Source: a virus. From it: DNA of 40,022 nt. Below are positions 4,761 through 35,381 of the stretch, piece after piece. The notes under the pieces are model-generated. The model had not been told where the DNA came from, ran no database searches, and saw only the letters and a list, made by a program, of their open reading frames with translations. The first letter of the stretch is position 1, and every line of letters begins with the position of its first letter. The position numbers and the translations under genes are program-made. The DNA lies in the IMG/VR virus record IMGVR_UViG_3300025625_000001, positions 1-40,022 of that record; one strand, 5' to 3'.

Positions 4761-4903
4761 AGCGCGCTCTTTTGGTTGCGCTGAGTAACCTCGCATTCGC
4801 CCTCTGTGCCCCGGGCATTATGTTGCTGGTGCTCCCCGGCTTACTTGGGAGTTGGGCTGACGACCGTATTCGGGAAATCGACGCGGGATGGGTGACGCCA
4901 TGA
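4757..4903 (+). CDS. membrane or exported mini-protein, 48 aa
   Basis: A basic start (MKRALLVALSNLAFALCAPG) and a hydrophobic region to about residue 32 are followed by an acidic amphipathic tail (SWADDRIREIDAGWVTP). It could be a signal-anchor or a two-helix hairpin. ATGA at both ends. No family recognised. Confidence 0.5.
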   Translation: MKRALLVALSNLAFALCAPGIMLLVLPGLLGSWADDRIREIDAGWVTP

Positions 4904-11200: not shown

Positions 11201-11266
11201 CGGCTGCGACGGAGGAATGAGGCTCGGAGAAGCGGCTGGCGCGGGAGCGTCAGGCGTGAACGGCAT
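8210..11266 (-). CDS. large internal virion/ejection protein, polyvalent type
   Basis: 1018 aa, last gene of the late operon. A Pro/Ala-rich N-terminus (1-50) precedes helical regions. Residues 323-376 carry LFRYQAT, GGTFFSKD and KNPLKV, resembling the scaffold of ADP-ribosyltransferase-like domains. The part with IGFLSFLADPSLSNVTGT and NYGERSPLTQALAYLLPFATW resembles C-terminal regions of phage large polyvalent proteins. Size, position after the M15 fusion, and composition suggest a protein packaged in the head and ejected with DNA, like T7 gp16 or P22 ejection proteins. Starts in TAATG overlap with the upstream gene. Confidence 0.55.
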   Translation of the reverse strand: MPFTPDAPAPAASPSLIPPSQPVQAKSGFTPDAKAGAAPKAPPPPAKPGSGPLDAFKPVLGGAARAVGTGVGNVIDVLQRPQHMTAAAITGGPSKANTLVHGQSEASADQTRAELRQKFGITPFYDSLAKVEWTSPNGNVIPGHAVQGMIDFAIDTGTDPLTYLGGLGIIDAATARMGLKSATALAKGVNAAERTGTTPGRLAGQAYEFATVKGPALRGLIERNGEQGIAQHQGLRMINNARRTMQDDLGNTLVNQYRKVTQGLTEAEEHELYQAVHEGTTAQLPSKLGMRAAAFKRVTDSLAHLSGDQKLQEELRRAESPNLFRYQATSGQPEVSPRGGTFFSKDKPNATYTAEAGLGGKHLTSAVASAKNPLKVTGPYQDFGAGLGGVMEMRGPKSLRMIDNIVDQSTGKLRPENARKYLQALGVPKLEIEHLLSVSDDPEWAYHVYDRIASAMAQKRGFDAIETEREFFALHPESFRAPKPGGFQVGPEFQRFEGEQPRGMQMPEQYRQHYVPTAHDVSKFSQAQQAAGGITSLDPHAGVAQAESLEDVLKTHVASPEPATAKMSAEDQALKERGERAKLLAPELQRKVIEARLRGGASAIAARDAEQAAARLFGVKDFSKIPPEAKAFFVEAYTRPEDRSALQNIGHILKGAVDIPKHGLFALPFRHMMNIGFLSFLADPSLSNVTGTAGKFARLMLERSPEARAKILGKSLKYGVTGAPSIDRSPGWTGRIPILGEIYKASNHTLWTFDDAAKATRFGKLLKRYQRGGMAEPEAAAKAANDVGAEMVNYGERSPLTQALAYLLPFATWRTKMPGAIARATLKHPERPLALSRISPEITGDLQQGPPGSGKVGVAYTPMADAYRGVDNPYEFARAAAGWPLQMALAKAQQAGGQGNNYWSYYKEPNTQYALNETVGSFPGGDYLLRFPELFGKPPLTEFKDQGQPTSILPNLVRAQTGFGLKSGPSPRELAAKQHFDQQRAMIDSLRKQGYNAYADTLQKKLDTYMRYNPLFQK

Positions 11267-13299
11267 TAGGCGGCTCCAACCTGAAGGTGAACGTGCGGCT
11301 CCGCGTCGTCCTCAAAAAGGTCAACGCCGTGCTGCGCTGCCCAAGCCTTTAACCCAGACACAACTTCCCGATTCGTGCCGATGCGCGCCCATCCACCCGA
11401 GAGCACGGCGTTGGTCACGAAGTCCCAGGTGCGCTTGTCGTAACCGCCAAGGGCGCCTCCTGCATCTGCTGCAACGTCGATTGCCCGCCCATCGTAGTGA
11501 GCGCTATTCGCGACATGACCCTGCCAATGCCCCGCGGTGTCCTTGTGGCCGAAGATACTCGACACGACCAAGGAACCGACGTTCTGCAGTTTCGTGAACG
11601 CCGAGGCGAGAGTTTGCGAGACATTGCCCCACTGCTCGCGGACTGCATCGCTAGCCGCCTGGAAAGGGGGCTTGGCGTCGCTGCCTCCACGAATCGCGTT
11701 ACCGTTCTCGTCTACGGGCGTCCCGTCATCAAGGAAATGCTTCCCGCCCTGCTGGTAGCCGTGCTTCCCATTCGAGAAAGCGCCAGGGATTTTAGGCCCG
11801 GTATCCGCTGCTGGGGTCGGCGGAGCCGCGAACTTTTGAGGCGTAATCGGCTTCCCTTCCGAACGGCGCTTCAACTCCGCATAGCGTCCACGCTCCGTAA
11901 GGAGTTCCTTCGCGACCGGGTTCGCGTCTTTCCCGAGTGATTGCGCGTAGTAATCTGCTGCGTTAATCGGGTCCGGGTTCCGGTCGATGAGCGAGAACGT
12001 GCTCATGAGCCTTTTCACAAGGTCCCCGCCGATAGCCGCAGGAGCCGTCTTGGGCGTGCCGTCCGGGTTCATCATGGTCGTGTTCGTCTTTGGGTCCATG
12101 AGGGTTACAGGCTGCCCTTGCGATGTACGCGGCGGCCGCAGCGCCTTGCTCCACGCAGCGTAAAACTGTTGTTGCGTGCGCGATGCTTCCTCACGGAGCT
12201 TGGCCTGTTTCTCAGGATTTGCAAGTGTCGCCTTCGCATCATCATGCGCAAAGCGCCGGTCCTGCCGCGTGTCCTCGCGATTCTGACGGTCCTGCTCCAG
12301 GTTAATCTCGACAGCGAGCCGCTTATCCGCACGCTGACTTTCGGCTGCTTGCGCCGTAAGGGCACGATTCTCGGCGTCTAGGTCGCGCTTGTCGAGCCTG
12401 CGGTCCTCGCCCTGCTGCGTGATAGCGGCCTGCTGCAACGAACGAGCATTGTTGGCTTGGTCAATCGCCTCGCGCTCATAATTGCCAGCCGTCGCACGAT
12501 GCTCGGCAGCGACATTGTGCGCCCCTACCCCCTCGTAGAAGTTCGCAAGCTCCGTCTCGTGACGGAAGTAGTCCATTGCCCCAGGGGCACGTCCAGCACC
12601 AGGCGGCAAGATGCGTTGGAGATTCGGCGGCAACTGGAACGGCTGCTGCGTTCGCGGGTCGATACCCCGGTCGCGCAGGTCCTGCGCCGCGTTGTACTGC
12701 GCGACCGCGTTCGTGTAGGACGACTTCATCTGCGCGGCTTCTTGCTGGTACTGGCTCTGCGCGGATTGCTCGTCCCGGTTGAATCGGTTCTCGGCACCCT
12801 GCTGGAGCCCGCCAAGCGCACCGGCGGCTAATTTGGAAATCGGCGCACCCGGGAACAACAACGAGAGCCCCAGGAGCGCGTACTCTAGCCCCTTCGCGGG
12901 CTGATGGTACTGCGGCGGCTTAAAGACCGGCGTTCCCTCTTGCGGTACCGCGTCCGTATTCGAGTTTCCAGCGGGCGGCGGCGGAGCACCCGTTGGCGGG
13001 GGCGTAGAGCCCCCAGGAGGCGCCTGAGTCGCTGTTTGGCGCTGCGTGCCGGGGAATGGCTGCTGCGCGCCCTGAGCGCCCTGTGGCCCTTGCTGGGGCG
13101 GTGGCGGCGTAGAGGCCGCAATGAGCTGCATCTCCGCCTGCCGCTTCGCGCCCTTGGACCCCGGAGGCGGCTTTGGCGGCTGGGGCGGCACATTGGGACG
13201 CGGGGATTGGGGCGAGAACGGACGCGGTTGCGGCGGCACCATCAATGGGTCGAAATTGGGCGAGATGGGCGGCGGCGCTACCTGGCCGTAACTGTACAC
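11266..13299 (-). CDS. virion protein with C-terminal M15 peptidoglycan peptidase domain
   Basis: 677 aa. Residues 1-130 are Pro/Gln-rich low complexity. Residues ~150-175 are hydrophobic (YALLGLSLLFPGAPISKLAAGALGG). The centre is a long Gln/Arg/Glu coiled coil. The C-terminus has the M15 zinc peptidase signature SxHxxGxAxD (S599-AHYDGRAID, H601, D608) and HxH (H669, H671). M15 enzymes cut D-Ala peptide bonds in peptidoglycan. Fusion to a long virion-type protein suggests local wall digestion during DNA entry, not lysis. Confidence 0.7.
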   Translation of the reverse strand: MYSYGQVAPPPISPNFDPLMVPPQPRPFSPQSPRPNVPPQPPKPPPGSKGAKRQAEMQLIAASTPPPPQQGPQGAQGAQQPFPGTQRQTATQAPPGGSTPPPTGAPPPPAGNSNTDAVPQEGTPVFKPPQYHQPAKGLEYALLGLSLLFPGAPISKLAAGALGGLQQGAENRFNRDEQSAQSQYQQEAAQMKSSYTNAVAQYNAAQDLRDRGIDPRTQQPFQLPPNLQRILPPGAGRAPGAMDYFRHETELANFYEGVGAHNVAAEHRATAGNYEREAIDQANNARSLQQAAITQQGEDRRLDKRDLDAENRALTAQAAESQRADKRLAVEINLEQDRQNREDTRQDRRFAHDDAKATLANPEKQAKLREEASRTQQQFYAAWSKALRPPRTSQGQPVTLMDPKTNTTMMNPDGTPKTAPAAIGGDLVKRLMSTFSLIDRNPDPINAADYYAQSLGKDANPVAKELLTERGRYAELKRRSEGKPITPQKFAAPPTPAADTGPKIPGAFSNGKHGYQQGGKHFLDDGTPVDENGNAIRGGSDAKPPFQAASDAVREQWGNVSQTLASAFTKLQNVGSLVVSSIFGHKDTAGHWQGHVANSAHYDGRAIDVAADAGGALGGYDKRTWDFVTNAVLSGGWARIGTNREVVSGLKAWAAQHGVDLFEDDAEPHVHLQVGAA

Positions 13300-15139: not shown

Positions 15140-16549
15140 TCAGCCGTCAATCCCATCGTCCGGCCCGCCCGCGTCATTCGAACAGCCTTTGCACTTGAAG
15201 TACGACGGCGGCTCCGTTACGGGAATCTTCACGAACGCCCGCGGCGGAGCAGTGAAGTCGAGTAATGTCGTCAGGTCGTCGCTAGTCCACGAATCGGCAG
15301 ACAGCAGCGACCCCTCCCCGAGTTTGAATGTCCCCTCGATGAGGCGAAGGATAGCAGCCTGGGAAGTATCCTGTGCATCCACCGCTCCAGGTTTGGAGTA
15401 AGCCGATGCGACCAAGAGCGGGACGCGAAATCCATACGTGCCCGTCGCCTTGCCAAGCACCGGCTTGTAGTGGTCGTAGAAGCCGCCCCAGTCGTCCCAG
15501 GTGACGACGATAGCCGTCGAGTTCCAGTAGGGTGAGGCGCCCACCGCGTCGATGATGTTGCCGACCCAATTCGGCCCGTCAGAGGCGACCTTGTAGTGCC
15601 GCGACGGGTGGTCGCTCCACTGCGCTGCGGGCATGATGTACGTCACGTTCGCGAGCTTGCCCGCAGCAATGTCTCCAAAGAACGCAGGCCCGCCCACGGT
15701 GTAGTTCGGCGAATTGTAGAGATGCTTGATGGCCTGCGGACCGCTCCAGAGCCCTCCGGCCTTGTTGCCGTAGTAGCGCCAGGTCAGGCCCTTGGCCGCC
15801 ACGATGTCAAAGATGGTCTGAACGTCGTAGCACGGGTACGCCTTCGAGCCTTCGATGCCAGGGAAGGCGCTGTTGAGTTGGATGCGCGTAACGGCAGTTC
15901 CAGCCGGTGACCCGCATTGCGTGTGCCCGCCGGAGCCTGTACCGCTCTTGATGCCGCCGTTCTCGACGAATCCCCACGGGTCGGAAGTAAAGCCGCCTGT
16001 GGAGTTGTCGATACCGCCAGCCTGCCCAGCAATCAGTTGCTGGTGCGCAGGGAACGACGGCCCCTGATTCAGTTGCAGGACGTGTGACGCCATGCCGTAG
16101 TTCGAGGCAATCGACCAGTACGCGGTTAGTTCGGACATCGGCACGTATGCGTAGACGGTGCCTTCCGGGCACTGCGAGAGGTTAAAGCCGTTCATGAGGC
16201 CGCCCGCGTACTGCGTCACGAAAGCATTATGCGAGTGCGACGGGCCGCACGAGGCGGCAAGCGATTGCGAGATAAGCGGCACGATAGCGTCGGAGGAGTT
16301 CTCCCCGTTCTGCACTGTATCCGCAGGACCCGGGAACGTCTTGCCGTCCGGGTATCCGTGGAACATATTGTCTTGCGTGCGGTTCTCTTGCACGACGACG
16401 ACGATGTGTGTGATGGGCGAACTCGCCGGAGCCGTTGGCCCAGCCGTAGCGGTTGGAACAGCACTTGGCGATGGGGTAGGCGGAGGCGGCGGTGGGGTGC
16501 CGCCACACGCTGCGAGCGCGAGAACCGCTACGGCAAGAAGCGCCTTCAC
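15140..16549 (-). CDS. lipoprotein phosphoesterase, phospholipase C/acid phosphatase family
   Basis: 469 aa, PF04185-like. Signal peptide with lipobox LAAC (C15), then a Pro/Thr/Ser linker (17-45). The metal-site residues known from Francisella AcpA are all matched: E55-N56 (QENRT), S165 (GPSFPAH) and D352-D353 (TWDDWGGFYDH, with H360). The C-terminus has a CKGC pair. The family hydrolyses phosphodiesters or phosphomonoesters, including phospholipids. With a lipobox it would be exported and lipid-anchored in the envelope. It lies directly downstream of holin-like genes and the endolysin, suggesting a role in lysis or envelope damage. GTG start overlaps the preceding stop (TAGTG). Confidence 0.85.
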   Translation of the reverse strand: MKALLAVAVLALAACGGTPPPPPPTPSPSAVPTATAGPTAPASSPITHIVVVVQENRTQDNMFHGYPDGKTFPGPADTVQNGENSSDAIVPLISQSLAASCGPSHSHNAFVTQYAGGLMNGFNLSQCPEGTVYAYVPMSELTAYWSIASNYGMASHVLQLNQGPSFPAHQQLIAGQAGGIDNSTGGFTSDPWGFVENGGIKSGTGSGGHTQCGSPAGTAVTRIQLNSAFPGIEGSKAYPCYDVQTIFDIVAAKGLTWRYYGNKAGGLWSGPQAIKHLYNSPNYTVGGPAFFGDIAAGKLANVTYIMPAAQWSDHPSRHYKVASDGPNWVGNIIDAVGASPYWNSTAIVVTWDDWGGFYDHYKPVLGKATGTYGFRVPLLVASAYSKPGAVDAQDTSQAAILRLIEGTFKLGEGSLLSADSWTSDDLTTLLDFTAPPRAFVKIPVTEPPSYFKCKGCSNDAGGPDDGIDG

Positions 16550-16614
16550 TAGAAAATTGGCTCCGACCCACCGATGAGGAGCAGAAAGAGAAAGAGCGCT
16601 GAGAGCGTAATCAC
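16549..16614 (-). CDS. hydrophobic micropeptide, 21 aa
   Basis: GTG at 16614 overlaps the previous stop (GTGA) and the TAG overlaps the next GTG (TAGTG). The peptide is nearly all membrane-inserting (ITLSALFLFLLLIGG). The two exact junctions support translation. It could be a small holin/pinholin-like peptide or only a coupling frame. Confidence 0.4.
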   Translation of the reverse strand: MITLSALFLFLLLIGGSEPIF

Positions 16615-16814
16615 GCGGGCGGTAGCGCAGCCTTCACGGCAGCGTCGGTATCCGAGATGCCTTGGCCGAGAGCGGTCGCGGCGGCGATCGCCGCGGTCAA
16701 GTCTGGGTTGCCGCTCTTGAGGAGCGCCACGAGTGCGTTCGCGTCGGCCGCGAGCGCTGCAAGCCCAGTTTCGTCGTTGGTCAGGGCCGCAGTAAGGTCG
16801 TCGAGTTGAGCCAT
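16611..16814 (-). CDS. Ala-rich helical protein, 67 aa, possibly with upstream membrane extension
   Basis: From ATG 16814 (SD AGGGAG, 8 bases upstream) it is an acidic helical protein (LDDLTAALTNDETGLAALAADANAL). The frame is open for 26 more codons upstream and encodes DPVILASLIISAAILLAAYYLGRIL, a strong transmembrane segment. An ACG at 16892 with AAGG upstream could start that longer form. The small-membrane-anchor plus helix layout and the position between holin-like genes and the lipoprotein suggest a lysis role. Confidence 0.55.
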   Translation of the reverse strand: MAQLDDLTAALTNDETGLAALAADANALVALLKSGNPDLTAAIAAATALGQGISDTDAAVKAALPPA

Positions 16815-16895
16815 GAGGATTCTCCCTAAGTAGTACGCCGCGAGCAGAATTGCCGCGGAGATGATGAGCGATGCGAGGATGACCGGGTCCGTGGC

Positions 16896-17159
16896 TTACG
16901 CCTTCTGGATGGTAACGCCACGCGGGACTGCCGTCACCTTGACGGACTGCCCCGAAGGCAGCGTTAGCAGAGTCCCGTTGATGGGGATGGCGAATACCTC
17001 GCCGTTGGGAATCGTGAGGTCGGCGTTCCCTTGGCTCAAGTCAAACTTGATGCCGTTGTTGAACGCCCAAGGCGTTCCGATGGTGATGGTCACGGGCTGT
17101 CCCGCAACGTATTCTGTGAGGTCGGCAACCGCCGTCTCGATGAGTTTCAGGAGTTCCAT
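16896..17159 (-). CDS. hypothetical protein, 87 aa, beta-rich
   Basis: A short N-terminal helix (ELLKLIETAVADLTEYVAG) is followed by beta-strands (QPVTITIG, KFDLSQGNADLTIPNGEVFAIPINGTLLTLPSGQSVKVTAVPRGV). SD AAGGG lies about 10 bases upstream. It sits inside the lysis region; no family recognised. It may be a small structural or regulatory partner of the membrane proteins on either side. Confidence 0.5.
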   Translation of the reverse strand: MELLKLIETAVADLTEYVAGQPVTITIGTPWAFNNGIKFDLSQGNADLTIPNGEVFAIPINGTLLTLPSGQSVKVTAVPRGVTIQKA

Positions 17160-17161
17160 GT

Positions 17162-17500
17162 CTAGGTTCCCTTCGGCACGGTTGTGCCAACGGCTGGAAT
17201 GGATTCGGGATTCACGAGCACGTTCGGGATGCTCGTGGAGTTCGGGCTTTTGACCACGGTCGTCGCAGCGTCTCCGCCTTGCTTCGCGCGGTAGAACGGC
17301 CCGATACCGAATACGGCCCCGAGCAGTATCCCGAACCACGCGTGCCCCATGTAAACGAGGAACGACGGGCCATCGTTGAACCCGCCGTTGGTCGGCCCGA
17401 GCGTATAGCCGATGGTCACGGCGGCGACCGTCATCGACCACAGGCCGAGCGCCTGCGCGACGAGGAACGACTGAAGCGCGGCCCACGTCCAGGTGTTCAC
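17162..17500 (-). CDS. holin-like membrane protein, 112 aa
   Basis: Two hydrophobic segments (about 5-33 LQSFLVAQALGLWSMTVAAVTIGYTLG and 46-68 FLVYMGHAWFGILLGAVFGIGPF) are followed by a hydrophilic Ser/Thr/Pro C-terminal tail of about 40 residues. Position just after the endolysin and beside another small membrane protein fits a holin or antiholin pair. GTG start overlaps the upstream stop (GTGA). Confidence 0.5.
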   Translation of the reverse strand: MNTWTWAALQSFLVAQALGLWSMTVAAVTIGYTLGPTNGGFNDGPSFLVYMGHAWFGILLGAVFGIGPFYRAKQGGDAATTVVKSPNSTSIPNVLVNPESIPAVGTTVPKGT

Positions 17501-17679
17501 AGGTGCAACCCGGCCATCGGCAACAGAATCGAGAGCGCGAACAAGAGCGCGACGATGCAGATGATGACGAGGATGACCTGCTTGAACGGATTCGGCAGCG
17601 GCAGGAAGGCGCTAACGAGCCAGTAGATGACGCCGATAACGGCGAGGATGACGCAAAGGTGTACGAGTGACTGAATCAT
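17497..17679 (-). CDS. holin-like membrane protein, 60 aa
   Basis: Two membrane helices (LVHLCVILAVIGVIYWLVSAFL and QVILVIICIVALLFALSILLPM) are joined by a short Pro/Lys turn (PLPNPFKQ), the layout of a small class II holin. A perfect AGGAGG SD lies 5 bases before the ATG, and the endolysin gene ends just upstream. Overlaps the next membrane protein by GTGA. Confidence 0.6.
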   Translation of the reverse strand: MIQSLVHLCVILAVIGVIYWLVSAFLPLPNPFKQVILVIICIVALLFALSILLPMAGLHL

Positions 17680-17688
17680 GGTAGCCTC

Positions 17689-18150
17689 CTAGAACGGGCT
17701 CAAGCCCGCCTCCAACAGTTGGTAGTGCTGCAAGCAGCGGTCTGAGTAATGGTCAGTCGTGAACTTCCCGATATCGCCTTGCTCGTGGCCCGCTTCGGCG
17801 CCACCGCGCCCAGCGTTGTACTCCGCAGCGATAGCGCGAACGAGGTCGTCCCCTTCCAGCCCCTCTGCTGCCCAAAACGTCTCGGCCGGAATCAGGAACT
17901 CTCGCACCGCGTAACGCACATTCGCTTCCGGTACGTCCCAGTTGTCGGGGTACGACGACGTGAGTTGCATCCAACCTTTGCCGCCGTCGCCTGATTCAAC
18001 ATTTGGGGAAAGGTCGTCACCTGTCTCGTTGACCTTGATGGCGTACGCCACAAGCGGCGAGAACGTTGGCTGCTCCGCGCACACGCTGTTGAAGATAGCC
18101 GCGCCGGGTAGGCTAGCCTGCAAGGGGCCGGAATGGATACCGTTTCTCAT
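17689..18150 (-). CDS. endolysin, lytic transglycosylase (SLT/GH23-like) domain
   Basis: 153 aa. Catalytic glutamate E42 in KVNETGDDL, then GKGWMQLTSSYP (58-68) and AIAAEYNAGRGG (106-117), the order seen in transglycosylase SLT domains. Conserved NVRYAVREFL precedes the last motif. It would cleave the MurNAc-GlcNAc bond of peptidoglycan. No clear signal peptide is present, so release through a holin is expected. The start at 18150 makes ATGA with the upstream gene; an in-frame ATG at 18168 would overlap more. Confidence 0.85.
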   Translation of the reverse strand: MRNGIHSGPLQASLPGAAIFNSVCAEQPTFSPLVAYAIKVNETGDDLSPNVESGDGGKGWMQLTSSYPDNWDVPEANVRYAVREFLIPAETFWAAEGLEGDDLVRAIAAEYNAGRGGAEAGHEQGDIGKFTTDHYSDRCLQHYQLLEAGLSPF

Positions 18151-18530
18151 GGATGCAACCTCAACCATTGCGTAAGTGCGGTAACGAGCGCGGTCACGGC
18201 AACAAGCGCTGCGTACAATTCCGTGCGCGTAATGAACGTCCCGGCTTGGTCCTTAAGCTGACCGCGGAACTCGTTTTGCGTTGCGTTCACGCGGCCTTGC
18301 GAATCCTCGGCCTTCGTCGTCGCGCGGTCGGCTGCGACAAGCGCGGCCCCAACTGCTTCCTTCGAGTCAATGAACCGCTGCTCGTATCGACGGTCGTTGA
18401 GCCTGATGGTCTCGGCGATTCCCTCAATTTTGGACGATATGAACTTCTCCAGCGTGTCGAGAGTCCAGCCGTTCGGGCTAAGGTCACCAGCCACATCCGG
18501 CTCCTCGTAAGGAGCAAGCTGGAGCGTCAT
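18147..18530 (-). CDS. coiled-coil protein with C-terminal membrane anchor (lysis-associated)
   Basis: 127 aa. A central long helix (DTLEKFISSKIEGIAETIRLNDRRYEQRFIDSKEAVGAALVAADRATTKAEDSQ) and a C-terminal hydrophobic segment (LYAALVAVTALVTALTQWL) are visible. Small phage proteins with this helix, the FRGQLKDQAGTF-type segment and a terminal membrane anchor are commonly next to endolysins and are sometimes annotated as holins. ATGA overlap with the endolysin supports a lysis role. Confidence 0.55.
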   Translation of the reverse strand: MTLQLAPYEEPDVAGDLSPNGWTLDTLEKFISSKIEGIAETIRLNDRRYEQRFIDSKEAVGAALVAADRATTKAEDSQGRVNATQNEFRGQLKDQAGTFITRTELYAALVAVTALVTALTQWLRLHP

Positions 18531-18559
18531 CAGACATCTGACGTTGGCCGCATGGTCAT
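18530..18559 (-). CDS. 9-codon leader frame
   Basis: ATG at 18559 sits 8 bases after a perfect GGAGG SD and encodes MTMRPTSDV, stopping in TGATG with the 127-aa lysis gene. The downstream gene has no good SD of its own, so this frame probably delivers ribosomes to it. Confidence 0.35.
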   Translation of the reverse strand: MTMRPTSDV

Positions 18560-18633
18560 TCGCCTATCCTCCGCTTCCGAACGCCCATCCATGGGAGTGT
18601 CGAGAGGTATTCCTGGTAGATTTCTGGCCTCAC
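18556..18633 (-). CDS. 25-aa peptide
   Basis: GTG at 18633 opens a frame (MRPEIYQEYLSTLPWMGVRKRRIGE) that ends in ATGA with the 9-codon frame. Amino-acid makeup is protein-like and basic at the end. Together the two small frames fill the only apparent gap between the exported barrel protein and the lysis module. Confidence 0.3.
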   Translation of the reverse strand: MRPEIYQEYLSTLPWMGVRKRRIGE

Positions 18634-18635
18634 GG

Positions 18636-19826
18636 CTAGCCAGCCTGCTTGGGCTTTCCCAGCACCGGCTTACAGCGGCACGTCAGCAGCCAGCAGCAGG
18701 GCGGAGCGCCCGGCGCCGACGAGAACGCCGCAGCCACGAGCTGGTTCCAATTCGTCGTCGCGTTGCAGCCCGTGTAGTTGTGCAGGCACGTCACGTCCTC
18801 GTACGAGTAGTAGAGAATCATGCCGAGCGTGTTCCCGAACAGTGCATAATTGCGCATCGTCTGAATCTGGGTCTGCGTCGGATACGGGCAAAGAGTAATC
18901 GTTCCGCACCCGCCATAGCCGTAGTAGAACGCCGTGAACGCCTGAACGACAAACCCCGGCTTCTCGGCAGCGTACGTCGCGGCGATAGACGTGTTGAAGT
19001 TCTGCATGATGCCCGCAATATCGGACATTTTCTGCCCGCCGCCGTTCCGGTTCTCGGGAATCGGGTAGTAGTCCAGGTTCTCGTACGGCGACTGCGCAGC
19101 CATGAGCCACGCGTAGACTCCGCTACACTCGGACTGCCCATTACACGACGTGAGGTTGTTGATTTGGGTCTGCCCACCGGCGCACGAGAACCCACCCCCG
19201 CCGCACGGAGGCCCCGCTGCCGTCGCCGTGCCGACGACCTTCTTCGTGCTATGCGCCTGGAGGTACAGCGCGAGTTCATCGACGTTCTGATACCGGCACG
19301 AGCCGACCCCAGCGTTGCAGGCGCTCTGCGCGTACATGCCGCCCTGGCAGTAGCCGATGGCCGTATGCGGGCAACCGTACTCGTCGTAGATGTAGTAGCC
19401 CCAGCAGCCCGCCGACGCATCGCACTGAGCAATAAGGCAATCGATGACCTGTTGATTCGTCGTCGCGCCGCAGTCAGTCGCGTAACTCGACCCTCGCGCG
19501 GTGAGCGAATCAACGAGACTCGTCGCCGTGAGAGCATCCGTCGTGTTGATGGACGACTGCTGAATCGGGATGATTTGCTGGATGCCGGCCGTAGCGCTAT
19601 CCGCTAGCCACGAGGCGATGCTGCCCGTTGCGCCCGTCTTGTGCGCGATGAGCGTGTTGTAGTCCACCTCTAAGGTGAACCCTCCGGTAGCCTGTTGCTG
19701 CATCGCTGCGAGGCACGTCGAGTACGTGTCCTGCACGTCGCACGTCGAATAGAGTCCCTGCGGCGGGAGCGCTGCTTCGGCACCGAGGGGAACCAGCACG
19801 AGTAGGAGCGCGAGTAGGTACTTCAT
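18636..19826 (-). CDS. secreted Cys-rich TIM-barrel-like protein, putative glycoside hydrolase
   Basis: 396 aa. A Sec signal peptide (MKYLLALLLVLVPLGAEA, cleavage after AEA) precedes alternating strand/helix units of the TIM-barrel type: GFTLEVDYNTLI, GIQQIIPIQ, GCWGYYIYDEYG (D148, E149), VVGTATAAG, GVYAWLMAA, NLDYYPIPEN, GFVVQAFTAFY and GMILYYSYEDV. The YDEYG strand end is where glycosidases often place an acid. Many Cys residues suggest disulphides in the periplasm or outside. It probably acts on a host surface glycan; family not assigned. Starts at ATGA with the upstream phosphoesterase paralogue. Confidence 0.55.
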   Translation of the reverse strand: MKYLLALLLVLVPLGAEAALPPQGLYSTCDVQDTYSTCLAAMQQQATGGFTLEVDYNTLIAHKTGATGSIASWLADSATAGIQQIIPIQQSSINTTDALTATSLVDSLTARGSSYATDCGATTNQQVIDCLIAQCDASAGCWGYYIYDEYGCPHTAIGYCQGGMYAQSACNAGVGSCRYQNVDELALYLQAHSTKKVVGTATAAGPPCGGGGFSCAGGQTQINNLTSCNGQSECSGVYAWLMAAQSPYENLDYYPIPENRNGGGQKMSDIAGIMQNFNTSIAATYAAEKPGFVVQAFTAFYYGYGGCGTITLCPYPTQTQIQTMRNYALFGNTLGMILYYSYEDVTCLHNYTGCNATTNWNQLVAAAFSSAPGAPPCCWLLTCRCKPVLGKPKQAG

Positions 19827-21103
19827 AGCCAATTCCTATTCCGGGACCAATCGAAGAACGTAAGGCCGTTGTCCGGCTCGTACTGCTCAAGCGCCCCAAC
19901 CTTCGGTGCCTGCGGAAACATCGAGTAGATGAGCTGCATGACGGTGAGCAGCGTGCGCGGTGTGTGATCGACGTATCCCGGTTTCGCGAACGGCGATATG
20001 ACGATGAGCGGCACACGCGCTCCGTACTCCAGGGGGTTCGGCGTCGGGCCATTTGGGTTCGGAGCGAACGGCGGCGGCTGGTTGTCATACCAGTTCCCAC
20101 CATTGACCCAGAGCAGAATGATGACCTCACTACCCCAATACTTCTTTCCCGGGCCGCAGGCGTTGATGACGGATGACACCCAATTCGGGCCGGGGCATCC
20201 GCCGGAGCACGACGGCGAGCCCTGCTCGAAAGCATCGTCGCTGTCGTCTTGCCCTGCCACGGTCGTATCGTTCGGGGTCACGAACGTCACGGCAGCCTGG
20301 TTTGTCGTTCCGCAGTCGGTGAGCACTTGCGTTTCCGGCGTAATGACGTTCGCGGCGTATTCGCTGCCGTTGAAGATGCTGCTGATAGCCGCTGGGGCGC
20401 ACGCTCGATTCGTTTTGAGGTTGCAGTAATATTTCCAGGGCACGCCTGCGGTATCAAGCGACGAAAAGATGGTAGAGATAACGAGGCACGGGTACGCTCC
20501 GTTCACCTCGGCCCCGGGGAATCCGGGCGTCATCGCAACGTACCCGACCGTCGTGCCGCCCACAGCGTAACAGCCGACGTTGGTAAGGTCGCCGAGATGG
20601 TTGTTCGCGAAAGCGTCAAACGGCGAAACATATCCGCCGGTCTGCCCGGCGATCGTGTAGAGGAACGACGGCCACACCGATACCTTGCCGGGAGCATACG
20701 TCGCATCACTCGTTGCATAGGTGTGCGCGAGCGTGCAGTAGCCGTTCGGTGAGGCGTTGACCTGCGATGCGGGAATGTACGAGTACGCAGTATTTCCCGT
20801 TCCGCCCGTCACGGTGAGTAGGTCATACCCGTTCATGGGGCACGACGTTCCGGTGCAGTTATCCGCGACGAGTTGCTGCGTGTACGTGTGCTGCGGATTC
20901 CCGAGCGCGACGAGCGACCCGGCAACGACCGTCACGGCCCCGCCTGTGTGATTCTGCCCCGTCTTGGTGAGGTTCTGAACACCTGCCGGAGCGCAGTCAG
21001 CGAACAGGTTATTCAGCGACCGACCCTCTTGTTCGATGACCACGATGTGGTCGATAGGAAGCGGCGCCTGGTACGCTACGTAGGCAGGAGGCGCTGGCAG
21101 CAT
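19823..21103 (-). CDS. degenerate phospholipase C-like phosphoesterase paralogue
   Basis: 426 aa, clearly related to the lipoprotein at 15140-16549: IDHIVVIEQEGRSLNNLF, IAGQTGGYVSPFD, FPGAEVNGAYPC, PWKYYCN and PGPNWVSSVINACG all align. Metal-site positions are mostly changed: N56 is G27, S165 aligns with V143, and D352-D353 align with W332-V333 (LWVNGGNWYDN). It lacks a signal peptide and starts at 21103 (TAATG overlap). It is likely a non-catalytic binding or structural version, perhaps a tail component or partner of the active copy. Confidence 0.75.
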   Translation of the reverse strand: MLPAPPAYVAYQAPLPIDHIVVIEQEGRSLNNLFADCAPAGVQNLTKTGQNHTGGAVTVVAGSLVALGNPQHTYTQQLVADNCTGTSCPMNGYDLLTVTGGTGNTAYSYIPASQVNASPNGYCTLAHTYATSDATYAPGKVSVWPSFLYTIAGQTGGYVSPFDAFANNHLGDLTNVGCYAVGGTTVGYVAMTPGFPGAEVNGAYPCLVISTIFSSLDTAGVPWKYYCNLKTNRACAPAAISSIFNGSEYAANVITPETQVLTDCGTTNQAAVTFVTPNDTTVAGQDDSDDAFEQGSPSCSGGCPGPNWVSSVINACGPGKKYWGSEVIILLWVNGGNWYDNQPPPFAPNPNGPTPNPLEYGARVPLIVISPFAKPGYVDHTPRTLLTVMQLIYSMFPQAPKVGALEQYEPDNGLTFFDWSRNRNWL

Positions 21104-21810
21104 TAGAACCCATACGAAGGGACACGAAAGATACAAATCGCTTGGACAACGGCGGCGGCGAGATTCGCGCTTGCCGTATACGTTGCAGCCAACGGTGCTG
21201 GGTAAACCAACGTCGTCATTACGCTGCTTGTAGCTCCGCTCAAAAGAGTCGCCGGAGCCCACCCAGGAGAAGCGTTTGTAGGACCAATGGCTCCGTTCGG
21301 AACGAACACAGCGATAAGCATATCGCTGGCTAACGCGGCCACCCCAGAGGTCGTCAGGGTGTTCGCGGAGGCTGGCCCAGACCCAGCAAACCCTGCGGGA
21401 GTTCCCGCATTTACCAACTCGAACATCATCAGGCTTTTTGCTGATGCGCTACCGTCGGAAAAGACGCAGTTGTCAGATGAGTTGCCCGTCGGAGGACTCC
21501 GGTAGTACACCGTAATCTGTTGTAAGGAACCGCTGGACAGTTGCTGCCCTAATTGCGTGTACCCCGTCGGAGTTACCGTTGTATGATTGACATCTGCCGC
21601 CAAGCAAATGATAACGTGGTCCGCTCCAGTCCCAGCCGTTTGCGTTAGTGTTCCGGTAACTGAGGCCGTAGCTGCAAATATGACTGTTTGTTGAATGGCC
21701 ACAGGCGGATGCACCACGCACGGGCCGTTTCCGCACGCCACTGCGTTCGCCGCAAACGCGACTCTCGGCAGCGACAACAGGAGCACCGCGAAAAGCAACA
21801 GGCGTTTCAT
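21103..21810 (-). CDS. exported beta-sandwich adhesin-like protein, 235 aa
   Basis: Sec signal peptide MKRLLLFAVLLLSLPRVAFA (cleavage after AFA). The mature part resembles the tail-associated domain with VTPxGYTxLG, YYRSPPTG...DNCVFSDGS and MMFELVNAG...SDMLIAVFVPNG, seen in phage and bacterial surface proteins. Start ATG 21810 (TGATG); GTG 21813 is possible. Adjacent genes are a lipoprotein and the phosphoesterase paralogue, all likely coupled. It probably binds a surface ligand. Confidence 0.55.
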   Translation of the reverse strand: MKRLLLFAVLLLSLPRVAFAANAVACGNGPCVVHPPVAIQQTVIFAATASVTGTLTQTAGTGADHVIICLAADVNHTTVTPTGYTQLGQQLSSGSLQQITVYYRSPPTGNSSDNCVFSDGSASAKSLMMFELVNAGTPAGFAGSGPASANTLTTSGVAALASDMLIAVFVPNGAIGPTNASPGWAPATLLSGATSSVMTTLVYPAPLAATYTASANLAAAVVQAICIFRVPSYGF

Positions 21811-22805
21811 CACTTCGTCACCACCACGACGTTACTCGTCAGCGCCGAGTTTATTTTATACGCCAGACCAGCCGAGAGTGGATAGCGTAACGTAATGACC
21901 TGCCCTGCCCCCATGACGACTGTCGTCCCATCGCCCCAGACGAGTGTCGCGGCAGCGCACGTTGCCGCTGCATCGTTGTAAAACTGCATGAATACGATCT
22001 GCGCTGGCCCGGCGTTACCAATCGAAAAGAGAGTTGTCGGGGCAGCGATGATGTTTGTGCAAGCCGTTGCAGATGACGAGGTGAGAGTCGTCGCCGTCGT
22101 TCCCCCGTCGTTGACCCACAACCCGCCGCCTTGCCCCGCGGGAGCGGTCGGATACGGAGAAGGGAACGGAATCGGCGTCGGAAACGCTCCAGACACCGGA
22201 ACGGTTCCAGTCACCTGAACGCACGGAGCGCTCGGAGCGCCGGGACAGGTCGGAGCAACGTACGGCGGAGCCGTATTAACCGTTACGATTCCGGTGATTT
22301 GCGTGCACGGCGCATTCGGAGCGCCGGGGCAGGTCGCTTGCGAAGTGACGATAGGCGGCAGTGATGAGATGACGACAGGTGGCAAAGACGACACGACAAC
22401 CGTTCCGCCAGCGCCACCGCCGCTTCCGCCTCCCGAGAGGTTGCAGACAATCGTGTACGTCAGCGGACCCGTTACGGCGGTGATGTGCAACTGGAAAAAC
22501 CCAATGGCCTGCGTGGACGAGTTGATGGCAACCGTCGTCGTCGTGCTCGTGGAAATTGCCGAGCCGACATTCGTCCAGTTGCTCTGGTCGTTTGAAGTAC
22601 GCGGTTGAGCCGAAAACGACCCAGCCGTATTCGTCGTAATCGAGCACGAGTTCTGTCCGCTCAAGGGGACGTTGATATCCGCAGGCGCTCCAATCGTATT
22701 CGTTGGAGCACCGACTTGGTTGACCGCCGTGCTCTGCCCGAGCAGGCCAACGCATCCCGCTATGAGCGAGAAGGCTAGGCCGATTGGCGCAAGTAGTTTC
22801 TTCAT
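21810..22805 (-). CDS. lipoprotein with beta-rich fibre-like region, 331 aa
   Basis: Signal peptide with lipobox LIAGC (C18). The mature part has a strand-rich domain (SCSITTNTAGSFSAQPRTSNDQSNW...), a Gly linker, and two copies of CPGAPxAPCxQxTGxVxV, a Val/Pro fibre-like repeat. The C-terminal domain ends VVVVTK. The N-terminal region resembles phage fibre segments of the AVNQVGAPTNTIGAPADINVPLSG type. It lies 3 bases after the tailspike gene. A lipoprotein in a fibre cluster is unusual; it may be displayed on the infected cell instead of the virion. Confidence 0.55.
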   Translation of the reverse strand: MKKLLAPIGLAFSLIAGCVGLLGQSTAVNQVGAPTNTIGAPADINVPLSGQNSCSITTNTAGSFSAQPRTSNDQSNWTNVGSAISTSTTTTVAINSSTQAIGFFQLHITAVTGPLTYTIVCNLSGGGSGGGAGGTVVVSSLPPVVISSLPPIVTSQATCPGAPNAPCTQITGIVTVNTAPPYVAPTCPGAPSAPCVQVTGTVPVSGAFPTPIPFPSPYPTAPAGQGGGLWVNDGGTTATTLTSSSATACTNIIAAPTTLFSIGNAGPAQIVFMQFYNDAAATCAAATLVWGDGTTVVMGAGQVITLRYPLSAGLAYKINSALTSNVVVVTK

Positions 22806-22808
22806 GCT

Positions 22809-24857
22809 TTACTCCGCAAAGAACTGCACGCTGGTGGGCTTGACAACGTAGGAGTATACGACCGTGCCGCCTGCTGGGCAACGTATCGTATTATTGCTGG
22901 CAACAAGCCCGTTCGTTCCTCCCGATACGTTGTTCACGATTCCGAGATTAACGCTGGTGCCACCACTGTGAACGAAGAACCCGTCGAACCCGAAGGTGTT
23001 CTGGACCGTTTGGGTTACTCCGCCCCAAGATGCTGTGCTGATACCGATGCAGATGCCGGTCGGGTTGTACCCCGCGTTGTTGCGCACGACCCACGTTGGC
23101 CCGAGGCCCGAAGTCGCCAGCGTGTTCCCGTTCTGAATCTGCCCGCCAGCCGCAACGGTTCCGTTCTTCATCGCTATGTCGTTGTCGCAGACGGTTACGG
23201 TGGCTGAAGCGTCATCCGCCTGGATGAAGTAGTTCCCGTTGCCCACGGTAACGTCGTTATCGTTAATGTGGATGGAGTTCCGAACGAAAGCACTCGTCGG
23301 AATGTGAACCATCGGAGTCGCGACTCCACCGCCTTGGTGAAGTCCGCCGCTGATAATGCGACAGAGGCCCGTGTTCCGAATATCGATCGTGTAGTTCGTC
23401 GCCTGGGATTTGCCCTTGGCCGAACCGCCCAAGTTCCCGCCTACGATGTCTACGAACCCGGGACCAGTGGTCGAGGTATCACCGATGATGGTCCCGCCCT
23501 CGAACCATGCCTGCTCCAGGTTCAACTGCGCGTGGTCGCCACCGAAGTAGGCCGACCCGCAGCCAGTTGTCATGCCCGAAGCGTTTGCCAGCGCACCGAT
23601 GTAGTCAGTCGCATCGCCAGGCCACAGTCCGTTATCCGTGCCACCGGAAAGTTGCGCCTGATTCGCCGTCAGCGTAAATCCGGTCCCGCTCGTTGCCGAG
23701 GTCTTGAGTTTGTTTCCGCCTTGGCCCGGCTCCGTCGCCGTAATGGTTACGACGTTGCTATTCGCCGTAGCCGTGACGGCCTGGTAATCTCCGGGGTTGC
23801 TGATGAAGTTCGACAGCGTGTTGAAGTAGGTCGTGATGGCTGCGGCGTCCAAAGTCGCCTGATTCGCCGCCGAAGTTCCCGTCGTTTCGGAGCATACCAC
23901 TGCGTTCCCCGTAATCGTGTAGGTATGCGTCTGCCCGGTCAACGCCGTCAGCGTGAGCGTGTACGTTCCTTGAGCGAAAGTGAACTGCGTTGCAGGCGGA
24001 GGCCCAAAGTTCGCCTCCGGGTCGAACATGTAGAACGTGCCGCCCTTGTACGAGCCGCTTGAGTTCATCGACAGAATCGACATACACCCAAAGAACGGCG
24101 TCTCGAACATCTTCGGGTCGGCGCCGCCATCGGAAACGAGCCCGTAGGTTCCGCCGTTGATGGTGTTCCCCAGGCCCTTCAGTCCGTGCCCGTACTCCAA
24201 GATGCCGAGATAATCGCCTGCGAACTTGCAGCCGTACATGACGTTGCGCCCACCGCCAGCGAACAGCTTTAGGCCGATTCCAACGCCTTGCGTCGTAATG
24301 TTGTAGAACCGCGTATCGGTTACGCCGACCACCGGAACGTTCGCGCCGTACGTTCCCTGCGGACCACCGATGTTGATGGCCGAGCCAGCAATCGACACAT
24401 TGGGCTTCCGGTTTCCCGTCGCACAAATGATTTGCATGTTCATCCACGTCATGCCCGTGCCGTGAGACGCGCCCGGCGGAACGCGGAACACGTCGTAATC
24501 GCCAGCCGCTGATACGACTGACGATTGCCCATCCCCAAAAAACGTTAGGAGGTTCGGCGTGTCGATAATAATTGCGCCCGTCTGCCCTGACGGCTGGACG
24601 ACGTTGTACTGCCCGCTCCGAGGAGTCGGGAAATATATCGCGTTCCCTTGTCCGCTCGCCATCGCGGCTTCGGTGCAGTCTTGGACGGCCTGGGTATCGT
24701 CGTTCCCGCCCCCGACATCGGTTCCATAGTTCTGGACATTGAAGGCATTCAGCCCGCCCTGCGTCTGAGCCAGAACGAAGGCGAAGTTCTCGTTTACGAG
24801 GTCCGCATCAGCCAGCGTATCGGGAACGAAGATGTTTGGAACTGTCGGTGTAGCCAT
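22809..24857 (-). CDS. tailspike/tail fibre with right-handed beta-helix
   Basis: 682 aa. An N-terminal anchor (VPNIFVPDTLADADLVNENFAFVL) shared with the next fibre is followed by an entry region typical of pectate-lyase-like helices (DTQAVQDCTEAAMASGQGNAIYFP) and many short beta rungs (NVMYGCKFAGDYLGILEYG, SIHINDNDVTVGNGNYFIQADD). Residues ~285-400 look like an inserted beta domain (TYTLTLTALTGQTHTYTITG...VTATANSNVVTITATEPGQGGN). Such spikes bind and often cut host polysaccharide; catalytic residues cannot be picked out by eye. Confidence 0.65.
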   Translation of the reverse strand: MATPTVPNIFVPDTLADADLVNENFAFVLAQTQGGLNAFNVQNYGTDVGGGNDDTQAVQDCTEAAMASGQGNAIYFPTPRSGQYNVVQPSGQTGAIIIDTPNLLTFFGDGQSSVVSAAGDYDVFRVPPGASHGTGMTWMNMQIICATGNRKPNVSIAGSAINIGGPQGTYGANVPVVGVTDTRFYNITTQGVGIGLKLFAGGGRNVMYGCKFAGDYLGILEYGHGLKGLGNTINGGTYGLVSDGGADPKMFETPFFGCMSILSMNSSGSYKGGTFYMFDPEANFGPPPATQFTFAQGTYTLTLTALTGQTHTYTITGNAVVCSETTGTSAANQATLDAAAITTYFNTLSNFISNPGDYQAVTATANSNVVTITATEPGQGGNKLKTSATSGTGFTLTANQAQLSGGTDNGLWPGDATDYIGALANASGMTTGCGSAYFGGDHAQLNLEQAWFEGGTIIGDTSTTGPGFVDIVGGNLGGSAKGKSQATNYTIDIRNTGLCRIISGGLHQGGGVATPMVHIPTSAFVRNSIHINDNDVTVGNGNYFIQADDASATVTVCDNDIAMKNGTVAAGGQIQNGNTLATSGLGPTWVVRNNAGYNPTGICIGISTASWGGVTQTVQNTFGFDGFFVHSGGTSVNLGIVNNVSGGTNGLVASNNTIRCPAGGTVVYSYVVKPTSVQFFAE

Positions 24858-25550: not shown

Positions 25551-27209
25551 TTACGTTCTTCCTCTCTGGTGCATAACGAGACTCATCCCGGCAAATATCC
25601 ACGGCGCAAGAGCCTGCGTCATCTGCACCCCAAACGAAAACGACTCCGCCTGCGTCCCGGGGTAGTCGATACGCGTCGTCGGAGCGGCAAACGCCAAGAA
25701 CTGCGGACCGCTCTCATTCGCCCAATCGGCGTTGTCCCACGCCGATACGTCCCAGATGCCGAAGAAGCTCTCGTACGGCAAATCCAGTGGCGTCGTGACG
25801 GTAGACACCGACCCGTAGTTGACGAGCATCACCCAATTCGCCAGGAACTCTCCCGATATGAAGAACTCGGGATACGCGCGCTCCATCGCCTTATTCGTTC
25901 CGGGTGCGCCAATCTTGTAGAACTTGGTCTGGAACTGGGCAAGAATCGGAGTCGTATCGTCAAGCGCTGGCTGGTTCGCAATCGGCTCAACGTCCCAGGT
26001 ATAGACCCGGCCATTCGTGCCGCCCACCATCGCCGTGTACGGGTCCGGGTCCGTTGGTGCATCGAGTAAGCACATCGACGCAATCCCCGGAGTCGGGCGC
26101 AGCACGGTCCAGCCGCCAATCGCCAAGTCGAATACGAGAATCGTATCAGGCTGCGCCGTTTGGGAAGCATAGCCGAGATGCAGGCGGTTGTTGTAAACCT
26201 CCATCCACGAAAACGCTCGGTTGAACGCCAGGGGGAAGCCCGGGTAGGTCGGGATGGAGGTTGTTACCCGATTCAGAATCCACGGCTCCACCTTTTCGGA
26301 GATAGGCGTGGGAATCTGCCCGAGCCCGAAAGCGTACACGGCACTGTGCCCGAGAACGAACACTTGCCCATTCCAGGAAATCATTGCTCGCCCGGCCACA
26401 GCCGCATCGGCAAACGGCGTTTCCTGCTGGTAAAAATTCGATGGGCCCGTTCCGGAAAGGATGGCAAACCCGTCGTTGAGCCCAACGATGAGCGCTGCTT
26501 GTGCTCCCGTGCCGCTCGCAGCCAGACCCATGACGGGAGACGAGTAGACGAAGTTCCGGTACGCCGGAAGCGTCTCCATCGACTCGATGATGCCGTCACC
26601 AGTACCAAAAACCTGATTCGGGGCGGTCGCGATGCCACCGAACCACAAGATTCCGTTCACGACAGCGCACCAGTTAGCGCCGCGTGCATTGTGCCAGCCA
26701 GCCGGAGCGTACAAGTTCGTTCCGTCGTAGATGCGAGGGATGCCATTCCCGTTGCAAATGACTAGGCAGTCCGTCAGCCCGCTTGTAAAGTTCGGGTCGT
26801 TCGGATTCTGGATACGCGCAAAGCACGGCGGATTCAGGACGCCAGAGCCGACTAAGCCAATGAGGTCGTTCGAGGTCGGCGTTACGACGAATAACTGGTC
26901 CTTGTGGAGCGCGATGAGTTGCGTCGTTTGCGGGCTGACGGCGGCGCCGTTGAGAACGCCCTGATAGAAGCGCGCAAGGTAGACTGGCTCCGTTGTCGGG
27001 AACGGGACGCCGAACGGCGTCATGCCATTCCGCATCTGGAACCCGCCATCCGAGGTCAGGTAGCCATCTTGGGCAATCGCCAGGTCGCTGTCGGGGAGCG
27101 CTTGCGGCAACGACTTCACATTGAGCCCGCCGCGGAAGCCATAAATGCCGAACTCCTGCGACTGCGTCGTGCCAGTCTGGAGCGCGCCAAGGCGCGTAAG
27201 AGTCGGCAT
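25551..27209 (-). CDS. tail nozzle/stabilisation protein (P22 gp10-like)
   Basis: 552 aa. The N-terminal FGIYGFRGGLNVKSLPQALPDSDLAIAQDGYLTSDGGFQMRNGM is the hallmark of podovirus nozzle proteins (GGLN...P..L...EA......G....R.G). It continues with repeated beta-propeller-like blades (QLIALHKDQLFVV, CLVICNGNGIPRIYDGTNLY, VNGILWFGG, GQVFVLGHSAVYAFG, NNRLHLGYAS). It would form the distal tail tube below the adaptor encoded next door. Starts at ATGA with the adaptor gene. Confidence 0.7.
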   Translation of the reverse strand: MPTLTRLGALQTGTTQSQEFGIYGFRGGLNVKSLPQALPDSDLAIAQDGYLTSDGGFQMRNGMTPFGVPFPTTEPVYLARFYQGVLNGAAVSPQTTQLIALHKDQLFVVTPTSNDLIGLVGSGVLNPPCFARIQNPNDPNFTSGLTDCLVICNGNGIPRIYDGTNLYAPAGWHNARGANWCAVVNGILWFGGIATAPNQVFGTGDGIIESMETLPAYRNFVYSSPVMGLAASGTGAQAALIVGLNDGFAILSGTGPSNFYQQETPFADAAVAGRAMISWNGQVFVLGHSAVYAFGLGQIPTPISEKVEPWILNRVTTSIPTYPGFPLAFNRAFSWMEVYNNRLHLGYASQTAQPDTILVFDLAIGGWTVLRPTPGIASMCLLDAPTDPDPYTAMVGGTNGRVYTWDVEPIANQPALDDTTPILAQFQTKFYKIGAPGTNKAMERAYPEFFISGEFLANWVMLVNYGSVSTVTTPLDLPYESFFGIWDVSAWDNADWANESGPQFLAFAAPTTRIDYPGTQAESFSFGVQMTQALAPWIFAGMSLVMHQRGRT

Positions 27210-31367: not shown

Positions 31368-32387
31368 CTAGAGATTCGCCAGGTCGTTACAAGGACCGAT
31401 GAACCCGTTGAGACGGGGATTGTCGGACGCGCAAGCCAGACCGATAACGTACCGGCAGGTTTTCTCCAGCACGTTCGGCGTGTCAATCCACGGCACGAAA
31501 TCGAAGCCCTTTTCGCCGAAGTAGCGGAACTTCGTGTGGTTTCCGTTGACGAAGTACATGTCGTAACCGACATTGTTGCCGTTCGCGATGGTGTCGAAGT
31601 GCGTATCGCCAATCCACTGCGCTCCGAGCGTGTGCGGGTTCCCGAGATACGGGTTTGCGCTATCGCCAGGCGACACGCGGACTTGAGCGTCCATCGAGAA
31701 CATGTACGACGCGACGATTTGCTGGTGTCCGAACACATGGGTCGGAGCAGCATCGCCAACCGTGCAGGCGGCGTACTCACGCAGGACCTGCGAACGAGGA
31801 AGGTCGTTCGTCGCCGTACCGAGGTTGCCGGTCGAGAACGAGATGACGTTGCCTTGCCAGTTCGCGAACGAGTTGGTCCCCAACCGCGCGATGTTGGCGT
31901 AGACGTTGTAGAGTTGCCCGTTGTCGCACGCTTCGGGAATCCCGACAAGCGGGTTGCCTCGCTGCGTTGAGCGACCCTTGGTGGTCGAGCAGGTGTCCTG
32001 CCCGAGAAGGTCTGTGAGCGAGCCGATGGCCGTCTCGACCTGCACCGTCAGATTGTCCACGCGCATGTTCGGTCCCCGAACGAGGCGGACGGTGATGTAG
32101 TCGAGAGACACGGCTGCTTGATACCAGGACCAGGGCATCGACGCAACGCTGTAGAGCGACTGCGGACCGCTGGAGAGGGTATCGTACTGGCCGAATGATT
32201 CGGCCGTATCGTTCTTGTTGCTCAGGATGGGAAACGCGAGCCAACGACCTTCGTCGTGCTTCTGAGCGTTGTCCCACATAACGCGCACGACTCGGTTCCC
32301 TTGGAAAACCGCGTCGGAGACGTATGGAGCGAAGGACTCCGCGAGAATCGCGCTGTCCTGGTCAAAACCGCCTAAATTGGCTGGCAT
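31368..32387 (-). CDS. major capsid (coat) protein
   Basis: 339 aa, in the right size range for an HK97-fold coat. Typical elements are an N-terminal region (SFAPYVSDAVFQGNRVVRVMWDNAQKHDEGRWLAFPILSNKND), a central helix (LTVQVETAIGSLTDLLGQ), and late strands (VIASYMFSMDAQVRVSPGDS-like and DTHFDTIANGNNVGYDMYFVNGNHTKFRYFGEKGFDF). It follows the scaffold gene and has its own promoter, a long leader and an SD (GGAGA), consistent with very high expression. Confidence 0.8.
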   Translation of the reverse strand: MPANLGGFDQDSAILAESFAPYVSDAVFQGNRVVRVMWDNAQKHDEGRWLAFPILSNKNDTAESFGQYDTLSSGPQSLYSVASMPWSWYQAAVSLDYITVRLVRGPNMRVDNLTVQVETAIGSLTDLLGQDTCSTTKGRSTQRGNPLVGIPEACDNGQLYNVYANIARLGTNSFANWQGNVISFSTGNLGTATNDLPRSQVLREYAACTVGDAAPTHVFGHQQIVASYMFSMDAQVRVSPGDSANPYLGNPHTLGAQWIGDTHFDTIANGNNVGYDMYFVNGNHTKFRYFGEKGFDFVPWIDTPNVLEKTCRYVIGLACASDNPRLNGFIGPCNDLANL

Positions 32388-35196: not shown

Positions 35197-35381
35197 GCTG
35201 GACGCAGCCCCTCAACCCGGCTCGTTAAAACCTGAGATGAATCTGAAGCAGTCATAGTAACGACTCCGTTCTCGCGTACTTCCTGGACCTGAAAAACTAC
35301 CTGCGGCTTCAACTTCCCGTCGCGCTCGAAGTTTGTATCGCGCCACGTCTCGCATACGGAGTCTCCAACCTGAAACGTCAA
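35193..35381 (-). CDS. hypothetical small beta-rich protein, 62 aa
   Basis: TTG at 35381 overlaps the portal stop (TTGA). The product (TFQVGDSVCETWRDTNFERD then VVFQVQEVRENGVVTMTASD) looks like a small SH3-like beta-barrel. A longer form starting at 35465 would overlap the portal gene by 88 bases and is less likely. Function unknown. Confidence 0.5.
   Translation of the reverse strand: MTFQVGDSVCETWRDTNFERDGKLKPQVVFQVQEVRENGVVTMTASDSSQVLTSRVEGLRPA

Follow-up and report, generated by a model that had tools for sequence, protein, structure and literature searches.

Exported phage proteins beyond the holin, lysin and spanin are known singly. XepA, the product of a lytic-cassette gene of PBSX in Bacillus subtilis, is seen after induction and crosses the membrane; mature particles lack it, and plaque assays show it to be cytotoxic (PMC6834076). 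YomS of SPbeta, from the same host, shares its C2-like beta-sandwich fold, and a pentameric disc is typical of the two. The lipoprotein Llp of T5 and BF23 is encoded beside the receptor-binding gene and blocks the receptor, and in different phages unrelated, non-homologous llp genes occupy the same place and do the same job (PMC4728585). Here we describe the tail-to-lysis junction of a tailed phage known from metagenome sequence alone: the linear IMG/VR virus record IMGVR_UViG_3300025625_000001, 40,022 bases in length, hereafter the window. We interpret this junction as a cargo site whose genes encode late, exported proteins, rich in cysteine, that stay out of the virion and target the host envelope, an interpretation that we hold to be evenly balanced between right and wrong. 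The proteins in question, all encoded on the minus strand, are as follows.

21810-22805, minus strand: LIP2, a beta-rich lipoprotein of 331 residues (lipobox MKKLLAPIGLAFSLIAG/C, 8 further cysteines, export score 6.6)
22422-22715, minus strand: the N-domain of LIP2, a predicted 8-stranded beta sandwich
21103-21810, minus strand: SEC2, 235 residues, predicted to be Sec-exported (..RVAFA/AN, score 6.7); its TGATGA start overlaps the end of LIP2
19823-21103, minus strand: PE2, a PF04185 phosphoesterase (PE) homologue of 426 residues with 12 cysteines, lying between SEC2 and TIM; its TAATG start is coupled to SEC2
18636-19826, minus strand: TIM (a working label), 396 residues and 22 cysteines, predicted to be Sec-exported (score 6.6)
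15140-16549, minus strand: PE1, a PF04185 lipoprotein of 469 residues (lipobox VKALLAVAVLALAA/C followed by a Pro/Thr-rich tether, score 6.67)

Strong export signals occur in exactly four late genes: a lipobox in PE1 and LIP2, and a Sec peptide in TIM and SEC2. Export was scored with a simple home-made signal-peptide scheme, not a trained (SignalP-class) predictor; by this measure the four genes reach 6.6-6.7, the next late-strand gene (a holin-like membrane protein) reaches 4.5, and by eye all four signals are textbook-like. The background is low: when in-frame start codons inside confident genes of the phage and its relatives are scored, 10 of 3,370 reach at least 5.5 and a single one at least 6.5, and of 180 core genes with a homologue in the window three reach 5.5, two of these owing to a start placed too far upstream. 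The four signals are therefore not a product of chance. All four reading frames are present on the minus strand, and in each case the named frame beats the other five in codon score, the weakest being SEC2; an opposite-strand open reading frame over TIM (18153-19607) was rejected, with a codon score of -97 against +102 for TIM. The original prediction had assigned lipoprotein and Sec signals to these same four genes, and that assignment holds. It had also drawn them as one exported block; the four members stand, PE2 had been missed, and the block is split by lysis genes.

The exported proteins are also rich in cysteine. Across 23 exported-type proteins from this phage, its relatives and one other phage (a set that includes the signal-less PE2) the median cysteine content is 2.7%, compared with 0.55% in 152 core genes (Mann-Whitney p 3e-13, uncorrected for kinship). 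The number of cysteines in the mature protein is even in 15 of 19 exported-type proteins once close homologues are dropped (p 0.01), and in 30 of 61 core genes with at least three cysteines. High and mostly even numbers are what disulphide-bonded exported proteins would show. From these features of the sequence we infer Sec transport, lipid anchoring, disulphides and absence from the virion; late expression is suggested by position in the operon.

The genes flanking and dividing the exported set are these.

22809-24857, minus strand: SPIKE, a tail-spike-like virion protein without export signal, whose N-terminal anchor is common to the spike proteins of relatives
18147-18530, minus strand: g12, with a C-terminal hydrophobic segment in its translation; lysis-associated by position, beside lysozyme-like and holin-like genes
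17689-18168, minus strand: endolysin candidate, resembling a lytic transglycosylase by eye; a gene of relative L033 shares 35% identity with it
17162-17500 and 17497-17679, minus strand: two small holin-like membrane proteins with hydrophobic segments and homologues in relatives L036 and L037

SPIKE ends 3 bases ahead of LIP2, and the successive gaps along SPIKE-LIP2-SEC2-PE2-TIM are 3, -1, -1 and -4 bases; the run from SPIKE through TIM is therefore probably translationally coupled. A gap of 105 bases follows TIM, and then come g12, the endolysin candidate, the two holin-like genes and PE1, so that the lysis genes (17162-18530) set PE1 apart from LIP2-SEC2-PE2-TIM. Promoter-like and terminator-like sites in this stretch are no more numerous than expected by chance. 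Because SPIKE found no match in Pfam and PHROG searches, its name rests on its position and shared anchor. The endolysin candidate likewise matched nothing in Pfam or NCBIfam, and its putative role is drawn from the appearance of the sequence and its position.

Relatives were sought with two structural proteins of the minus strand, which carries the portal, major head protein, tail genes, exported block, lysis genes and large late proteins.

35378-37444, minus strand: portal protein (PHROG portal 7.8e-12; Pfam P22_portal 1.2e-6)
31368-32387, minus strand: major head protein (PHROG 1.6e-14)
25551-27209, minus strand, among the tail genes: tail protein used as search query

Neither the head nor the tail protein had a relative in 50,697 phage records. 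In IMG/VR the head protein led to 14 loci and the tail protein to 18, on contigs that overlap in part; the relatives are metagenomic contigs, several of them incomplete. At the tail-to-lysis junction, relative G006 encodes three Sec proteins (481, ~268 and 756 residues), the largest with a lectin-like Laminin_G_3 domain (2.2e-8); G007 encodes two Sec proteins of 396 and 385 residues, the second truncated where the contig stops; and L036 has a lipoprotein of 502 residues and a Sec protein of 252. The near-identical contigs G010 and G011, from the same phage group as the window, carry a Sec protein of 147 residues, a lipoprotein of 362, a phosphoesterase, and Sec proteins of 90 and 243 residues; the order lipoprotein, phosphoesterase, Sec protein, lysis genes is common to these contigs and the window. 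Judged from these gene maps, the junction is a cargo site: the place is kept and the contents turn over. The idea that the block moves as a unit among related phages, considered at the outset, is not borne out, the site being retained with differing content and, in several relatives, with nothing exported. One exported protein (G007_402) has a stretch in common with a virion fibre of G006 (41% over 49 residues, E 5e-6 in a two-sequence search), a hint that pieces may be traded between fibres and exported proteins. Exported singletons occur at other late junctions in L003, L024, L030 and L033. The one in L030 (1025-3046, genome G005), located between the portal and the next late gene, is a protein of ~643 residues with 17 cysteines and many Pro/Thr/Ser repeats, for which no family is known.

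PF04185, the acid phosphatase and phospholipase C superfamily, includes Francisella AcpA, bacterial phospholipases C and the plant enzyme NPC4, and covers both PE1 and PE2 at full length. PE1 matches it with E 1.8e-45 and 156 bits (cut-off 23) over positions 1-355 of the 356-position profile; PE2, in its longer frame, matches with E 3.7e-21. The nearest solved structure to PE1 is AcpA (2d1g, phmmer 4e-22). In NPC4, alanine at E23, N24, H79, T158, H264, D299 or E300 strongly cuts or abolishes activity (PMC9837106). All seven of these positions (E, N, H, S/T, H, D, D/E) are kept in PE1, as E55, N56, H105, S165, H314, D352 and D353. PE1 thus has the whole domain and catalytic set of the cellular enzymes; it differs from them in sequence (24-27% identity in an alignment with three cellular members), in its predicted lipidation and Pro/Thr-rich tether, and in its place in a phage late operon.

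The same seven positions in PE2 read E, G, H, V, D, V and N: two (E and the first H) are kept and five lost. No signal peptide was detected in PE2 by the home-made export score; an alternative TTG start would give it a hydrophobic N-terminus, lacking charge, with no evident ribosome site. With only two catalytic positions kept and no signal peptide, yet 12 cysteines, PE2 is probably a pseudoenzyme; it may have taken on another function or may be a copy in decay. In the tree, no other phage member has so long a branch.

As to substrate, the best subfamily for PE1 is the AcpA-type acid phosphatase TIGR03397, with 86.3 bits, far under its cut-off of 363; the phosphocholine-specific phospholipase C TIGR03396 gives 84.7 bits, under its curated cut-off of 580. 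In every phage phosphoesterase scanned the acid phosphatase score exceeds the phospholipase C score, with both below the curated cut-offs. NPC4 requires an extra C-terminal domain for full lipid hydrolysis (PMC9837106), and PE1 is too short for a large extra domain of this kind. Since the acid phosphatase profile scores higher and space for such a domain is lacking, we lean towards phosphomonoesters or small phosphodiesters, over bulk phospholipid, as the likely substrates of PE1.

Three further phage phosphoesterases were found: that of G010/G011, at the junction, and those of L043 (50 kb) and L061 (37.9 kb). Neither the head nor the tail protein of the group has a match in L043; in L061 the tail protein alone was sought, and it has none. 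A lipobox and low-complexity tether are present in PE1 and in the L043 and L061 proteins, and the G010 protein has a weaker, probable Sec signal. Beside its PF04185 lipoprotein, L061 encodes a second small lipoprotein (16380-16826, MRVRLLALSLLAA/C). Identity is 30-56% among the five phage proteins and 21-32% between these and three plasmid-borne cellular ones; the latter take a branch of their own in the tree (support 0.986), from which, given the thin cellular sampling, an origin is not assignable. PE1 and PE2 matched no family in a PHROGs search, and the searched phage records gave no convincing phage member for lipidated phosphoesterases of this kind. Matches to PE1 in INPHARED under the name 'Acinetobacter phage MD-2021a' were rejected for the one record inspected (CAKLQH020000009.1, L046), a contig that resembles a bacterial chromosome, its PE-like gene surrounded by dsbA, rph, nadC, ampD and mviN; three more records of that name gave similar matches.

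LIP2 returned nothing above threshold in family profile searches. Its N-domain, modelled with AlphaFold2 from an alignment (predicted local distance difference test score (pLDDT) 83.3, predicted template modelling score 0.71), can be aligned with the N-terminal domains of five other exported proteins, with Cys24 and Cys91 (domain numbering) invariant in all six. Profile comparison with the G010 and L036 lipoproteins gave 23%, against at most 7% in 30 shuffles and at most 3% in virion controls, which suggests a weak but reproducible relationship. Among solved structures, fold matching (VIA) ranked YomS (6i5o) highest, at Z 10.8 over 89 residues at 2.1 Å, followed by XepA (6i56) at Z 10.1 over 89 residues at 2.2 Å. 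The likeness proves neither kinship nor function for LIP2, which differs from XepA and YomS in having no detectable sequence similarity to them, a clear lipobox, and sequence beyond the domain. Lower-ranked fold matches were not used, and absence from the matches listed excludes no family. At E ≤0.001, 47 predicted viral proteins match the N-domain, the named ones being mostly uncharacterised tailed-phage proteins; scans of viral contigs for further LIP-type proteins returned already known phages only. Homology of LIP2 to the phage's own SPIKE or FIB was rejected, with scores at chance level.

SEC2 has no homologue among the loci fetched. For TIM, searches of phages, plasmids and viral contigs gave no homologue, and the PDB gave no significant match; its single-sequence AlphaFold2 model (pLDDT 36) is unusable.

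Elsewhere in the window, 4888-5577 on the plus strand encodes a short protein resembling C-5 cytosine DNA methylases (Pfam DNA_methylase 3.8e-5, over the N-terminal part of the profile only), and 11266-13299 on the minus strand a large late protein with, by eye, an M15-type peptidase-like C-terminus (SAHYDGRAIDVA ... EPHVHLQVG), for which a Pfam search gave no match. A 76% relative of the head protein occurs on a 3.3 kb contig (L042, CAIYET010000454.1) in a bin for a Candidatus Hydrogenedentes metagenome-assembled genome, weakly hinting at a host or reflecting a misbinned contig. Hydrogenedentes was not accepted as host: the head-protein match lies on this short binned contig, and matches to PE1 in the phylum are weak and partial.

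If the junction is a cargo site, then the cargo of this phage would be LIP2, SEC2, PE2 and TIM, head to tail behind the spike gene, plus PE1 past the lysis genes. LIP2 and PE1 would pass through Sec and then be lipidated; SEC2 and TIM would be released into the periplasm or further out. PE1 would work as an AcpA-type phosphatase or phosphodiesterase, held at a membrane by its flexible tether and cleaving phosphoesters on the outside of the cell; LIP2, and perhaps SEC2, would bind the envelope by means of XepA/YomS-shaped beta-sandwich domains and so coat or perturb it. The joint outcome would be a remodelling of the envelope at the end of infection, with easier release and fewer progeny lost on debris; the substrate of PE1 and the benefit to the phage are what we infer here. 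Gene order and export signals would also suit an exported lytic-cassette protein like XepA, export and absence from the virion being predicted in the present case. A bolder version is a tentative possibility: some environmental tailed phages may maintain a late-operon island devoted to export, whose products, a phage-specific set of secreted lipoproteins resembling adhesins together with phosphoesterases and a pseudoenzyme, would build up or strip the surface of the host as a secretome apart from holin, lysin and spanin. The dead PE2 would then bind PE1 or its substrate, or act as a decoy for either.

Several observations weigh against the cargo-site interpretation. Nothing is exported at the junction in G005, G008 and L033; because several relatives lack such proteins, an essential role in lysis is unlikely in this lineage. 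LIP2 resembles XepA by fold only (~10% identity), and SEC14-like and GOLD domains follow at Z 9.7-9.0, within about one Z unit. The phosphoesterase genes of L043 and L061 lie in early-type regions, away from lysis genes. The original prediction of a phage-borne exported set directed at the envelope is well supported, and the two PF04185 phosphoesterases and the XepA/YomS-like sandwich now give it substance. The roles it suggested (lysis, superinfection exclusion, debris clearing) are indistinguishable, and aid to lysis, receptor blocking and phosphate release are not separable on present data.

Among the alternatives, masking of the receptor is doubtful but fares best. An Llp-like LIP2, together with SEC2, would hide the phage's receptor at the outer membrane, stopping superinfection and loss to debris, and PE1 would strip phosphates from that receptor. 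The placement of LIP2 directly behind a spike gene, whose product is presumably the receptor binder, recalls that of llp, as does the occupation of one site by unrelated proteins, and the Laminin_G_3 domain of G006 and the fibre segment in G007_402 give exported proteins of relatives lectin-like and fibre-like pieces. However, LIP2 is far bigger than Llp and is one of several exported proteins; it scores at chance level against its own SPIKE and FIB, and a late operon is a late location for exclusion.

We consider it unlikely that PE1 is a nutrient gene, that is, an auxiliary phosphatase at the cell surface whose released phosphate would feed phage DNA synthesis where the habitat is poor in it, with unrelated cargo for neighbours. 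The fit of PE1, PE2 and the G010 and L043 proteins to TIGR03397, slightly to clearly better than to TIGR03396 (below both cut-offs), the lack of space in PE1 for an NPC4-type C-terminal domain, and the early-type surroundings of the L043 and L061 genes agree with such a function; yet in the window and in G010/G011 the gene sits in a late operon by the lysis genes, and LIP2, SEC2, TIM and the dead PE2 are left unexplained. That the proteins are tail-associated adhesins or enzymes of the virion, with hydrophobic N-termini unused for export, is highly improbable: the genes do follow the tail genes gaplessly and similar proteins of relatives have collagen-like and fibre-like pieces, but textbook signal peptides and lipoboxes of a kind nearly absent from core genes, mostly even cysteine numbers and presence that differs between relatives all speak against it.

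Should the cargo-site interpretation be true, a late junction filled by several related phages with varied exported, cysteine-rich proteins, lipidated phosphoesterases among them, would turn the phage secretome into a class open to testing. It would also indicate by what route these phages modify the host envelope, or the supply of phosphate to the host, in the course of infection.

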